Positions 2,999 to 6,926 of a stretch of DNA of 64,000 nt are shown one piece after another; the first letter of the stretch is position 1, and each line of letters opens with the position of its first letter. A model generated the notes under the pieces. It searched no databases and was not told the origin of the DNA. It saw only the letters and a list, made by a program, of their open reading frames with translations. The stretch is from Bradyrhizobium sp. PSBB068. GTDB taxonomy: Bacteria > Pseudomonadota > Alphaproteobacteria > Rhizobiales > Xanthobacteraceae. Made by a program: the position numbers and the translations under genes. The stretch lies in contig CP069300.1 of NCBI GenBank assembly GCA_016839165.1, positions 6,830,001 to 6,894,000 of the forward strand, written 5' to 3'.

Positions 2999-3083
2999 CC
3001 TGGCACAAATCGAGGGAAATCCGTCATTCGCTTTCCCGGTCCGATCTGCGATCATTCCTTAACATCCGGCAAGAGAGGCGACG

Positions 3084-3395
3084 ATGGCGCTGCAGCTGCG
3101 ACCGAACTGCGAATATTGCGACAAGGACCTGCCGCCGAGCGCAACTGACGCCCGGATCTGCTCCTATGAATGCACGTTCTGTGCGGATTGCGCCGAGACC
3201 AAGCTCGGTAATGTCTGCCCGAACTGCGGCGGCGGCTTTGCGCCGCGGCCGATCCGCCCGGCCAAGCCCTGGCGGGCAGGCGTCTGCACCGTGAACCAGC
3301 CGCCGTCGGACAAGCGGGTGCATCTGAAATACAGTCTCGAGGACTGCGCGGCGCATACGGCGAGGCTGAAGGATATACCACCTGAACAGAGATAG
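3084..3395 (+). CDS. DUF1272 zinc-ribbon-like protein
   Basis: This 103-residue protein carries cysteine pairs that look like two zinc knuckles: NCEYC near residues 10-14, CSYECTFCADC at about 29-39 and CPNCGG at about 49-54. The layout matches the DUF1272 family, whose role is unknown. The remainder is basic and proline-rich. An AGAGAGG ribosome binding site precedes the ATG. It lies just upstream of the AT-richer ParA-SIR2 cassette, but its own base composition matches the host chromosome. Confidence 0.85.
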   Translation: MALQLRPNCEYCDKDLPPSATDARICSYECTFCADCAETKLGNVCPNCGGGFAPRPIRPAKPWRAGVCTVNQPPSDKRVHLKYSLEDCAAHTARLKDIPPEQR

Positions 3396-3443
3396 CGCGC
3401 CTTACAAGTTCAATCCTGTTAGCAGGACCCATCTTCGGTGTCG

Positions 3444-3474
3444 CTAAGCTTGCGCGCACATCATCCAAGCTTAG
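3444..3474. promoter_or_regulatory. Inverted repeat upstream of the ParA-SIR2 pair
   Basis: CTAAGCTTG at 3444-3452 and CAAGCTTAG at 3466-3474 are perfect complements with a 13-base centre. The site ends 30 bases before the ParA start. It could be an operator for autoregulation of the cassette, as is common for ParA genes and toxin-type operons, or a remnant of an integration boundary. No copy was seen at the other end of the cassette. Confidence 0.5.
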
Positions 3475-3504
3475 AATAGCGAAGGAAGAATCCACAACCC
3501 TCCG

Positions 3505-4608
3505 GTGCATAAAGTGGCAAAAAGACAACGCGGCATCTCTACCGGCAAGCCACTTGATGCGGAAGACAAAGAACTATTCGATTCCGTCCGGGAGAGTGGA
3601 GTCAAAGCCACATGCTTCTTTAACAATAAGGGCGGCGTGGGAAAGACAACGCTCGTTGCAAATCTGGCCGCGGAACTAGCACTTAACTTTGGAGCGCGGG
3701 TTCTCGTCGTCGATGGCGATCCACAATGCAATCTTACTCAGTATGTTCTGGGTGAGGACGAATGGATCGATATCTATTCAGCAAATGACCCCACGTCCGT
3801 CTACAGCGTGATCCGGCCCCTTTCCCTAGGAAAGGGGTATGGCACCAGCCTACCTATCGTCAAAGCAGGAAATTTCGGCTTCGATATTATTGTCGGAGAC
3901 CCACGCCTCGCACTGCAGGAAGACCTCCTTGCTCAAGACTGGCGCGATGCCAAAGCAGGCGGAATGCGAGGAATACGCACGACCTTTGTTTTTGCAGATG
4001 TGGTCGGAAAAGCGAAGGAAATGAACTATGATTTCGTGTTTTTCGACATGGGGCCATCGTTAGGAGCCATCAACAGATCGATTCTGTTAGCGATGGACTA
4101 CTTCGTCGTTCCGATGGCCATCGATATTTTTTCACTTTGGGCCATAAGGAACATTGGTACGACCGTCGGAGTGTGGCAACGCGAACTTAAAACTGGGATT
4201 AGCTTGTCTGAGGACCCCTCTGAGATTCCAGCGGCCGATCAAGCTCGATCGCTACGATTCGTTGGCTACGTTACCCAACAACACAAAGAAAGGGGTGGGT
4301 CTGAGCCGGACCCTGCAGAGGAGAACGAAGCAACCAGAAAACGTATCGTGCAGGCGTACCAGGACATCAGCCAAAACTTCCCGGCTGAGATATCAGCTCA
4401 CCTCGGCAAGTTCTTCGACGCGAAGAAAGTGGATCCTCACTTGGGTGATATTCGTCACCTCGGAAGTTTGGCTCCTCGATCTCAGAGTCAACATGCACCA
4501 ATGATCTCCGTGCGGGGCACCGGCAGCTACACGCAGCTGCGAAAGCAGGCGCGAGACATCTATCGCGGGATAGCGATACGCTATCTAGAAAATGTTGTTG
4601 CGACCTGA
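3505..4608 (+). CDS. ParA/MinD-type ATPase paired with a SIR2 protein
   Basis: This 367-residue protein starts at GTG (3505; a second GTG at 3514 is possible). It has the deviant Walker A motif of ParA ATPases, NNKGGVGKTTLVANLA with K42, K47 and T48, then VVDGDPQCNLTQY (A' motif, D70) and FVFFDMGPSLG (D181, Walker B). It is longer than a chromosomal Soj/ParA (about 260) because of insertions and a C-terminal extension. No ParB gene or parS-like site lies nearby, so partition of a replicon is unlikely. It is followed after 8 bases by the SIR2-like gene, so they are almost certainly co-transcribed. Codon use is clearly less GC-rich than the flanking catabolic genes, which points to transfer. 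A role as ATPase switch for a defence effector is inferred. Confidence 0.85.
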   Translation: MHKVAKRQRGISTGKPLDAEDKELFDSVRESGVKATCFFNNKGGVGKTTLVANLAAELALNFGARVLVVDGDPQCNLTQYVLGEDEWIDIYSANDPTSVYSVIRPLSLGKGYGTSLPIVKAGNFGFDIIVGDPRLALQEDLLAQDWRDAKAGGMRGIRTTFVFADVVGKAKEMNYDFVFFDMGPSLGAINRSILLAMDYFVVPMAIDIFSLWAIRNIGTTVGVWQRELKTGISLSEDPSEIPAADQARSLRFVGYVTQQHKERGGSEPDPAEENEATRKRIVQAYQDISQNFPAEISAHLGKFFDAKKVDPHLGDIRHLGSLAPRSQSQHAPMISVRGTGSYTQLRKQARDIYRGIAIRYLENVVAT

Positions 4609-4616
4609 GATTCGCG

Positions 4617-5492
4617 ATGAGCGAATTTAATGCCGATCTTGTCGATGATCTCGCTCGCCGAAGAGTCGTTCTCTTTCTAGGTGCTGGAGTATCTGCGAGC
4701 GCCGCAACCCGTACGGGTGGAAGAATAAAGGGCTGGGAGGCCTTTCTCAACGAGATGAACGGCAAAGCCGGAGCCGCGGTCAAGGAACAGGTTACACGGC
4801 TCCTAGACCAAAAAGACTACCTGCTCGCGTGCGAAATCCTGCAGATGGACCTTGGTGAACGATGGGAACGCGAGATCGTGCAAGAATTCGGTCAAGCAGC
4901 GGAGCCCTCTCCACTCCATGAGGCGATAGTAGCGCTCGATCAGAGAATCATAGTCACAACTAACTTCGACAAGCTGCTCGAGATGTCTTGGCAAAGCAAA
5001 ATAGGCTTTGCCACTCATTTCCCCCAGGTGATCACAGCTATCGACGCAAACATCTTCAACATCTTGAAAGATCAGTCAGGCAAATATCTAATCAAGCTTC
5101 ACGGCACGATCGACGACGTACGAACCCTGGTCTTCTCGCGATCCGAGTATATCCGCATGGCATTCGGTAGTGCCGTGTATTCTGCCTTTCTGGAGACGCT
5201 TCTACTAAATTACACATTTCTCTTTATTGGTTTCTCCATGGACGATCCGGCGATTTCGTCTCTAATGGAGATGTATGCACTTCGTTACCCGAGAGCACGT
5301 CCCCACTACGTCATTTCTCCTGCGGGCTTGGAACCAAATATCATCGAGATAAATAAGCGCCTCCGAAAACTTGTGGTGATTGGCTACGACAGCTCTGACA
5401 ACCACACAAAGCTGCCTTCGGTTCTTGGCGAGTTAGCAGGACTCATAAGGCCGAAGAGAAAAGAGATTGCAGCTGAGTTCTTGCTTCCGTGA
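4617..5492 (+). CDS. SIR2-like (SIR2_2) NADase-type protein
   Basis: This 291-residue protein has the hallmarks of the SIR2 fold used by bacterial defence effectors: FLGAGVSASA (G22, G24, S26) for NAD binding, VTTNFDKLLE with N116, IKLHGTIDD with the catalytic H162, and FLFIGFSMDDPAI with the second nucleotide-binding Ser and Asp. Many proteins of this class (in Thoeris, SIR2-HerA, DSR and short prokaryotic Argonaute systems) deplete NAD during phage infection. There is no zinc-binding cysteine cluster, so it is not a deacetylase of the CobB type. It follows the ParA-like ATPase by 8 bases and shares its AT-richer composition. The specific two-gene arrangement is not one I can match to a named system. 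Confidence 0.88.
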   Translation: MSEFNADLVDDLARRRVVLFLGAGVSASAATRTGGRIKGWEAFLNEMNGKAGAAVKEQVTRLLDQKDYLLACEILQMDLGERWEREIVQEFGQAAEPSPLHEAIVALDQRIIVTTNFDKLLEMSWQSKIGFATHFPQVITAIDANIFNILKDQSGKYLIKLHGTIDDVRTLVFSRSEYIRMAFGSAVYSAFLETLLLNYTFLFIGFSMDDPAISSLMEMYALRYPRARPHYVISPAGLEPNIIEINKRLRKLVVIGYDSSDNHTKLPSVLGELAGLIRPKRKEIAAEFLLP

Positions 5493-5515
5493 TAACTTCG
5501 TTCTATCCAGCGAAC

Positions 5516-6784
5516 TCACTCCGCCGCGACGATCGTACCTTCGACTTCACCAAAGCCGACGCGGTAGCCGTCGCCCTGGCACCAGCCGCGCATGACAAGC
5601 GAGTCGCCGTTCTCGAGGAACGAGCGCGTCACGCCGTCGGCGAGCTCGACCGGCTCGGTGCCGTTCCAGCTGATCTCCAGCAGACTGCCGCGCTGGTGCT
5701 TCTCGGGGCCGGAGATCGTGCCGGACCCTAAGAGATCGCCGACATTCATCGCGCAGCCGCTGGAGGCGTGGTGCACGAGCTGCTGCACCGACGACCAGTA
5801 CATGTATTTGAAGTTGGTGCTGCAGATCGTCTTCGCCTCGTTCATCGCACCGGCACGCAGGCCGACATCGAGCGCGAGATCGTAATTGTTCGGCCTCACC
5901 TGCTTCAGATAGGCCAGCGGCTCCGGCTGTTGCACCGGGCCCTGCATCCGGAACGGCTCCAGCGCCTCGCGCGTGACCACCCACGGGCTGATCGAAGTCG
6001 CGAACGCCTTGGCCTGGAACGGGCCGAGCGGCACGTATTCCCACTGCTGGATGTCGCGCGCGCTCCAATCGTTGAGGATGACGAAACCGAAGATCATCTC
6101 CTCGGCCTGCGCCTCGGTGAGCATCTCGCCCATCGCCGACGCCTGCCCGACGACAACGCCCATCTCGAGCTCGAAGTCGAGCCGCTTGCAGGGCCCGAAG
6201 CTCGGCACCTCTGCCGTCGGCGGCTTGAGCTGGCCGCGCGGCCGCTTCACCTTGGTGCCGCTCGCAACGACGGTCGAGGCACGGCCGTTATAGCCGATCG
6301 GCATGTGCAGCCAGTTCGGCTGCAGCGCATTGTCCTTGCCGCGGAACATGACGCCGACATTGGTGGCATGCTCCTTCGACGAATAGAAATCGGTATAGCC
6401 CGAAACCGCAAACGGCATATGCAGCTTCACGTCAGCCATCGGCACCAGCGCCCGCGCGCGCAATTCCCTGTTGTCGCGCAGCTCCGGATGATCCGAGCGG
6501 AGCAGCTCGCTGATCCGCGCCCGTGTCGCCGACCACACTTTCGGCCCGAGCGCCATGAACGCGTTGAGCGACGGCTGCGAGAACACGCCGAGCGGCCCGA
6601 CATCGAGCCGAGAATCCTGCTCGAGCTCCCAGAGGTCGAGCACATAATCGCCGATCGCGACGCCGACGCGCGGAGCCAGTCCGTTCGCGGAGAACACGCC
6701 GTAGGGCAAATTCTGGATCGGAAAGTCGGACGTGGGCGCGACGTCGATGAAGGAGCGGAGTTTGGGGTCGTTGGGGTGGGGCAT
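5516..6784 (-). CDS. fahA: Fumarylacetoacetase
   Basis: The enzyme hydrolyses fumarylacetoacetate to fumarate and acetoacetate, the last step of the homogentisate pathway. The metal ligands known from the family are visible: D132 in YTDFYSSKEHA, E205 and E207 in FELEMGVVVG and D239 in LNDWSARD; the catalytic His is H139. The start at 6784 has AGGAG four bases upstream, so the longer frame to 6826 is rejected. Length 422 fits the eukaryote-like FAH family. It is the last gene of a minus-strand run that begins at 11326, separated from hmgA by a family B repeat. Confidence 0.97.
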   Translation of the reverse strand: MPHPNDPKLRSFIDVAPTSDFPIQNLPYGVFSANGLAPRVGVAIGDYVLDLWELEQDSRLDVGPLGVFSQPSLNAFMALGPKVWSATRARISELLRSDHPELRDNRELRARALVPMADVKLHMPFAVSGYTDFYSSKEHATNVGVMFRGKDNALQPNWLHMPIGYNGRASTVVASGTKVKRPRGQLKPPTAEVPSFGPCKRLDFELEMGVVVGQASAMGEMLTEAQAEEMIFGFVILNDWSARDIQQWEYVPLGPFQAKAFATSISPWVVTREALEPFRMQGPVQQPEPLAYLKQVRPNNYDLALDVGLRAGAMNEAKTICSTNFKYMYWSSVQQLVHHASSGCAMNVGDLLGSGTISGPEKHQRGSLLEISWNGTEPVELADGVTRSFLENGDSLVMRGWCQGDGYRVGFGEVEGTIVAAE

Positions 6785-6820
6785 GGTCTCCTGCCGAAAT
6801 AATTGACGCACTTTATCTCT

Positions 6821-6926
6821 CGTCATTCCGGGATGCGCCGTAAGGCGCAGGCCCGGAATCCATCAGGCCACGTGTCGCGCGGAGCAATGGATTCCGGGCT
6901 CGCGCTTCGCGCGCCCCGGAATGACG
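6821..6926. repeat. Family B palindromic intergenic repeat, copy 1
   Basis: Arms of the type CGTCATTCCGGG and CCCCGGAATGACG enclose inner arms GGCCCGGAATCCAT and ATGGATTCCGGGC. Related copies lie at 12063, 38126 and 43143. Here it sits between hmgA and fahA, two genes of the same strand, so it may act on mRNA processing or stability within the operon. Confidence 0.8.

Follow-up and report, generated by a model that had tools for sequence, protein, structure and literature searches.

A pair of adjacent genes, coding for a ParA-type ATPase and a SIR2-like protein, lies on a stretch of 64,000 nucleotides from Bradyrhizobium sp. PSBB068 (contig CP069300.1, positions 6,830,001 to 6,894,000; hereafter, the window). 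We find that this ParA-SIR2 pair is a real, conserved, mobile and co-diverging two-gene unit, recognized in 43 non-identical copies. It probably constitutes a mobile toxin or abortive-infection module, in which the SIR2 protein would act as an NAD+-consuming effector and ParA as its dedicated regulator.

A ParA profile built from 14 pairs was used in ParA-only searches of genomes and viral contigs, with the best 80 of 221 relatives retained for the latter. After removal of repeats, a SIR2 gene directly follows every ParA that scores at least 264 bits and has downstream sequence (40 + 3 = 43 pairs); three further high-scoring ParAs end at contig ends (loci L056, L062 and L068). The lowest intact paired ParA reaches 333 bits (L076), a paired one split between frames 264 bits (L082), and the highest unpaired one 255 bits (L075). 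Pairs counted as non-identical differ within a 140-residue core, some being near copies (L060/L069, L066/L067), and four ParAs are cut at the 5' end (L037, L063, L064, L070).

The two genes overlap in 30 of the 40 pairs, by four bases in 21. Distances between ParAs follow those between their SIR2 partners with r of 0.84, against a maximum of 0.26 in 2000 permutations. All SIR2-linked ParAs form one clade (43 rows, support 100). The paired SIR2s likewise form one clade (support 99), with membership read directly from the tree; it also holds L020, which a contig end truncates on its upstream side. SIR2 homologues from genomes without ParA (L022, L030) both fall outside it. The initial annotation, made from the window sequence, expected the two genes to recur side by side in other genomes, and within the clade they do so wherever the sequence is uncut. 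The most divergent pair, L076, has a SIR2 score of 228 bits and long branches in both trees. In L082/L132 (IMGVR_UViG_2609460219_000011) parA is split across two frames while the adjacent SIR2 gene is open, through either decay or sequencing error.

In the window, the two open reading frames (ORFs) are separated by 8 nt, and Pfam confirms the classes first assigned to their products: AAA_31 for the ATPase (E 2.1e-27) and SIR2_2 for its neighbour (E 1.7e-23), where it is the sole domain in 291 aa. Among entries ranked by Foldseek, the nearest folds of the SIR2 protein are NADases and NADase effectors. It combines the SIR2/SIR2_2 fold with the catalytic Asn and His, as in anti-phage SIR2 NADase effectors. 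These two residues, N116 and H162, and K42, K47, D70 and D181 of the ATPase had been described as intact; they are invariant in the 34 SIR2s and 30 ParAs aligned. The window SIR2 is a predicted NAD+-consuming effector with putative NADase activity. A SIR2 chain in the Protein Data Bank (PDB), 9v0g, was considered as a ParA-SIR2 complex and rejected: it belongs to KomBC of the Kongming system.

The AlphaFold2 (AF2) model of the window ParA (pLDDT, its predicted local confidence, 86.5) is that of a ParA/Soj-type SIMIBI ATPase. Its top Foldseek structure is Corynebacterium diphtheriae DIP2308 (PDB 3pg5; 30% identity, E 1.3e-16), followed by Soj structures. DIP2308 shares the GPSLG-x-x-NR motif with the window ParA family in the alignment. 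Judged from the titles of 5u1j and 8jmj, the structural relatives include DNA complexes. The protein also matches PHROG 164, "ParA-like partition protein" (E 3.4e-39). It matches 21 phage records, and in a single one, that of phage Pf1, the match covers 80% or more of the query; the Pf1 "Putative regulatory protein" (AY324828.1:940-1953) is 27% identical across 90% of the length of the window ParA. A phage-genome origin of the pair was rejected on these ParA matches and on the lack of any SIR2 match in 50,697 phage records.

The pair was horizontally acquired. Its surroundings comprise hppD, an Lrp/AsnC regulator, a DUF1272 gene and fahA, the last two being its immediate neighbours. Alignments with the closest relatives end at 3376 and restart at 5510-5521. 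In 22 of the 24 other same-genus genomes with DUF1272, fahA stands directly adjacent, 7-223 nt away between match ends, as opposed to 2126 nt in the window; in the remaining two it was not seen in the fetched stretch (L163, cut short, and L167). The lower GC content reported at the outset is clear in sliding windows: 0.513 in 3377-5510 versus 0.653 across the remaining window, and the GC minimum of the 64 kb for stretches of this length starts at 3401 (100-nt steps). Both the AT-rich character of the pair and its insertion between the hppD- and fahA-side genes therefore stand. The insertion 3377..5510 contains no integrase, and a repeat scan of 3300-5620 found no repeats at its ends, so that transposon ends were rejected as an explanation. 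Rfam gave no match in 3000-6000, and promoter and terminator scans returned signals no better than in shuffles. In agreement with the initial annotation, the Pfam matches of the neighbours include no ParB gene: parA is followed by the SIR2 gene, and then by fahA on the opposite strand.

Features of the ParA-SIR2 locus (positions within the window)
Feature	Position	Strand	Remarks
Low-GC insertion	3377..5510	.	alignment break relative to relatives, and GC; contains the two genes only
ParA-type ATPase gene	3505..4608	+	GTG start, stop at 4608, 367 aa
Deviant Walker A, KGGVGKTT (K42 signature lysine, K47)	3628..3651	+	from sequence; invariant in 30/30 ParAs
D70 of VVDGDPQ	3712..3714	+	invariant in 30/30 ParAs
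Walker B D181	4045..4047	+	invariant in 30/30 ParAs
N190-R191 of GPSLGAINRS	4072..4077	+	N190 common to all partner-linked ParAs
SIR2_2 protein gene	4617..5492	+	ATG start, stop at 5492, 291 aa; predicted NADase effector
GAG nucleotide-binding motif (G22, G24)	4680..4688	+	G22 and G24 invariant in 34/34 SIR2s
Catalytic N116 (TTNFD)	4962..4964	+	invariant in 34/34 SIR2s; aligns with the TTNYD Asn of DSR2
Catalytic H162 (LHGT)	5100..5102	+	invariant in 34/34 SIR2s; aligns with the VHG His of DSR2
Left flank, DUF1272 protein	3084..3395	+	PF06906, E 3.9e-29
Right flank, fumarylacetoacetase (fahA)	5516..6826	-	PF01557 and PF09298

ParAs related to the SIR2-linked clade, yet outside it, adjoin other partner proteins: RelA_SpoT in 22 rows (5 of them checked by Pfam), HEPN_RiboL-PSP in 9 (3 checked) and, upstream of ParA, SLFN_AlbA_2 with HATPase_c_4 in 18 (2 checked). 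The remaining labels were assigned by profiles built from the Pfam-checked genes. RelA/SpoT partners retain the YTSIHY and EIQVRT..WGEIDH stretches, and HEPN partners the R-x4-H motif. NADases, alarmone-type pyrophosphokinases and HEPN RNases are classes familiar from toxins and from abortive infection. On the tree, the HEPN-linked ParAs make up a single clade (support 96), and the RelA/SpoT and AlbA_2 labels need two changes each. With hhalign, the HEPN-linked ParA of L043 can be aligned along 294 columns of the profile of SIR2-linked ParAs (E 2.5e-44).

One residue unites these ATPases. Asn190 is present in every partner-linked row (92/92: SIR2 43/43, RelA_SpoT 22/22, HEPN 9/9, AlbA_2 18/18), whereas the outer ParAs carry Thr or Ser there in 12/12 and Asn in 0/12. 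The tree also holds 20 rows without a recognized partner, 9 of them with Asn190 and the other 11 with Val, Thr, Ile or Met, and 10 cut rows, 6 of them with Asn190. Since it occurs in partnerless and cut rows too, the Asn marks a group wider than the partner-linked ParAs. Among 38 newly added loci, 11 have no assigned partner, and all 11 carry the Asn by motif.

Several of these loci deserve separate mention. A ParA followed by a stand-alone RelA/SpoT synthetase-like protein, often in viral contigs, occurs at L092:7998-9766, L041, L078, L084-L086 and L089, as well as at L096-L099, L101, L102, L106, L108 and others; these could possibly represent a separate ParA-toxSAS system. The Schlafen-AlbA_2/HATPase_c_4 protein (about 400 aa) precedes ParA at L038, L039, L083, L079, L202, L203, L205, L207-L211, L213, L217, L222, L223, L229 and L230, and is the partner most often assigned in the new phylum loci. 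Downstream of such a pair, at L079:8993-11305, lies a protein of 771 aa that weakly matches PglZ (24.6 bits against a cut-off of 25); this may be a larger defence locus. Finally, a Val190 group without recognized partner comprises L107, L109, L111-L113, L115-L119 and L050, from viral contigs and one genome.

In a nine-row branch of the ParA-SIR2 clade (support 98), a DNA methyltransferase lies near eight pairs: directly downstream in L017 and L035, directly upstream in L013, L072, L073 and L074, convergent downstream in L071, and one gene away in L002, the second pair of the window genome. The methyltransferases fall into two families. In the first, proteins of the upstream and of the downstream arrangement share about 40% identity; in the second, those of L184 and L071 share 72%. 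A larger tree adds L200 and L201 to the branch (11 rows, support 99), and no relative of the branch methyltransferases was found in 17 kb around each. As the link fell from 8/9 in the smaller tree to 8/11, the odds of the readings based on DNA modification were lowered. In the SIR2 tree, L017/L035 group apart from the other members of the branch, though support there is weak. By tblastn, the branch families do not lie near the other pairs included in that comparison, and the window pair and its own branch lack such a methyltransferase. The repeated association in different gene orders suggests a DNA-modification link in part of the clade.

The distribution of the pair is sparse and patchy. Of 391 family genomes, 7 have a SIR2 match; five of these carry the pair, one is unpaired (L022), and in the last (L020) the sequence breaks off at a contig end. 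At class level SIR2 matches occur in 3 of 385, two paired and one unpaired (L030). ParA searches recovered the pair in 6/397 order, 5/398 phylum and 5/341 family genomes. In the plasmid collection, the top eight SIR2 records also take the first eight places for ParA, and the two genes are neighbours in them; their hosts are Photobacterium, Vibrio ponticus, Burkholderia, Spirosoma, Neorhizobium and three Salmonella (six records fetched). Distant blastn with the Salmonella pair found no E. coli relatives. In the viral contig L057 the pair has a portal gene on one side and a P2-type replication gene A on the other, a clear prophage setting. Rousset et al. validated anti-phage systems in the P2 hotspot. 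The L057 site resembles that hotspot, and the two may be the same.

Proximity to defence genes, which the initial annotation had anticipated, holds weakly. Flanking genes were crude longest-ORF calls; for 127 of 240 flank ORFs, drawn from 23 loci, the Pfam tally includes Phage_GPA (4), CI repressor (4), integrase (4), portal (3) and two C5 methylases. Phage genes and methyltransferases (the latter mainly in one branch) accompany the pairs, and single flank ORFs match candidate-defence models, but among the matches listed, up to 25 families per list, defence models are few. PADLOC families number 28 for 84 chromosomal flank ORFs versus 3 for 45 window ORFs, counts in which many models match the same methyltransferases, DolB, mad2, mad3 and PycC may be housekeeping, and matches are not ORF-resolved; given these weaknesses, we make no claim of defence-gene enrichment.

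The second pair of the same genome (L184:10249-12176, at about 113,248-115,175 of G000:C1; also L002) is distant from the first, with 31% identity in SIR2 and 42% in ParA. Its region carries a DNA methyltransferase and a phage-type integrase about 6 kb away, and a possible BamHI-like protein below the Pfam cut-off (E 0.0099). Five plasmid SIR2 regions outside the clade were rejected as further pairs, having no ParA beside SIR2. One region has TIR genes, another type I restriction, a third a DUF4007/PAPS-reductase/DUF262 cluster, a fourth RES and DprA, and the fifth nothing that resembles defence. The first is Thoeris-like, with three TIR-domain proteins at the sides of the SIR2 protein (L023:5683-10247, Moraxella osloensis plasmid p4). 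In a Hymenobacter plasmid (L025:1713-8819), the SIR2 gene ends the DUF4007, PAPS-reductase-like and DUF262 cluster between integrase genes, which resembles a DNA-modification defence locus.

We favour a two-gene toxin or abortive-infection module on the basis of what is observed here: the unit, its conservation, co-divergence and mobility, its intact motifs, the NADase-effector fold, and the other partners of related ATPases. From these we infer a NADase activity, its restraint or gating by ParA, a trigger and a role in phage defence. The resting nucleotide state of ParA would keep SIR2 inactive. The trigger would most likely be the DNA of an invader, or a phage or plasmid process bound to DNA, on which ParA might change its nucleotide state or assemble; the released SIR2 would then form oligomers, exhaust NAD+ and arrest the infected cell. 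A shared ATPase with an exchangeable enzymatic partner would follow the pattern of two-part conflict modules. The abortive-infection proposal of the initial annotation is partly supported, by the mobile conserved unit, by the NADase-effector fold and intact catalytic residues of SIR2, and by a ParA with intact ATPase motifs and no ParB. An antitoxin releasing its toxin is as good a reading as a sensor gating a NADase, because the closest printed precedent has ParA as the antitoxin of a HEPN toxin. More tentatively, the Asn190-marked ParA/SIMIBI ATPases might define a class of immune modules, with the ATPase as an interchangeable sensor of invading DNA, coupled to four or more kinds of partner (SIR2 NADase, RelA/SpoT-type pyrophosphokinase, HEPN RNase and Schlafen-AlbA_2). 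Where a methyltransferase would often mark self, in one branch of the ParA-SIR2 clade, the ATPase would then read DNA modification and trigger NAD+ loss rather than DNA cutting.

The pair may instead be a selfish addiction module, ParA being the antitoxin of SIR2 and both serving to retain plasmids, prophages or islands, with defence as a by-product. Such a role would suit a tightly coupled operon found on plasmids and prophage-like contigs, and ParA-HEPN dyads have been proposed as toxin-antitoxin systems. Yet the window copy stands by itself among chromosomal genes and has no remaining mobile gene to stabilise, and the enzyme classes found next to related ParAs occur in anti-phage systems as well; we regard this role as rather unlikely. 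It appears improbable that the pair works in a restriction-like manner, the ATPase recognizing unmodified foreign DNA and the sirtuin modifying or damaging it by ADP-ribosylation, with no NAD+ depletion. The methyltransferases near 8/11 pairs of one branch, the DNA complexes among the solved ParA relatives and the DNA ADP-ribosylation proposed for HerA-sirtuin systems (PMC9503650) point in that direction; against it, the closest folds of SIR2 are NADases, the methyltransferase is missing in 3/11 and in the window's branch, and the pair has no nuclease-like part.

The ParA fold, for which Soj structures rank second, and the PHROG match would also suit an ATPase of the ordinary segregation or positioning kind, which would have a protein deacylase for its cargo or regulator and no conflict role. 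We find this very hard to reconcile with a missing ParB partner, a patchy spread (the pair is in 5/391 family genomes), a SIR2 nearest in fold to NADase effectors, and the RelA/SpoT and HEPN partners of related ParAs. Chance adjacency in a low-GC insertion, which has nothing in its favour beyond the single locus, is rejected, its probability being close to nil in view of 43 non-identical, coupled and co-diverging pairs. If a conflict module is indeed what the pair encodes, a ParA/SIMIBI ATPase would join the short list of NTPases controlling NADase effectors (STAND, HerA), beside Argonaute, and some plasmid or prophage ParA-like genes annotated as partition genes would be conflict regulators. 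The variety of partners would allow one to ask, by effector exchange, whether the trigger follows the ATPase, and the methyltransferase branch would offer a testable rule for self and non-self.

The initial annotation knew of no named ParA-SIR2 system, and no PADLOC-DB v2 system model matches both proteins. The best matches are LmuA and ThsA for SIR2, and PDC-M28B for ParA, over residues 30-72 only. Thoeris ThsA, DSR2 and Kongming KomC are SIR2 NADase effectors as well, but the partner of the window SIR2 is a ParA ATPase. In contrast to Thoeris, the window SIR2 has no SLOG domain, and its neighbours (ParA, DUF1272, fahA) include no ThsB/TIR partner. Unlike DSR1/DSR2 (about 1000-1270 aa), it is 291 aa long without a large C-terminal part, and scores 35 bits with NCBIfam Dsr2 against a cut-off of 1400. 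The KomA and KomB of Kongming are absent beside the pair, where DUF1272 and fahA are found. SIR2-HerA (Nezha) and PD-T7-2 are similar in pairing, in two genes, a SIR2 protein with a P-loop ATPase; there, however, the window partner differs in being AAA_31/ParA, with no HerA model among its PADLOC matches. With ParABS partition the ATPase shares its fold and deviant Walker motifs, but it has no ParB, a SIR2 partner, and Asn190 in place of the Thr/Ser of the outer ParAs.

The SIR2 partners described in the parts of the literature consulted are TIR systems, HerA, STAND/NACHT, PIWI/Argonaute, TPR-GreA/B-PIN and Macro, and MinD/ParA-like domains are mentioned there in other conflict systems. No ParA-SIR2 system was found, a weakly supported negative given that preprints, most subscription papers and newer defence catalogues lay outside the search. 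The closest precedent is the ParA/Soj-HEPN (MAE_18760) dyad, a predicted toxin-antitoxin system in which ParA would be the antitoxin (Biol Direct 2013;8:15, PMC3710099). It resembles our pair in that a ParA/Soj ATPase gene adjoins a gene for a toxin-like enzyme, and differs in that the window has SIR2_2, not a HEPN RNase, in the toxin position. HEPN-linked and SIR2-linked ParAs form separate clades, and the HEPN partners found here match HEPN_RiboL-PSP and may differ in family from MAE_18760. The ParA/Soj-HEPN dyad has thus been predicted before; within the limits of our literature search, what appears new is a SIR2 protein in the toxin position of a ParA pair.
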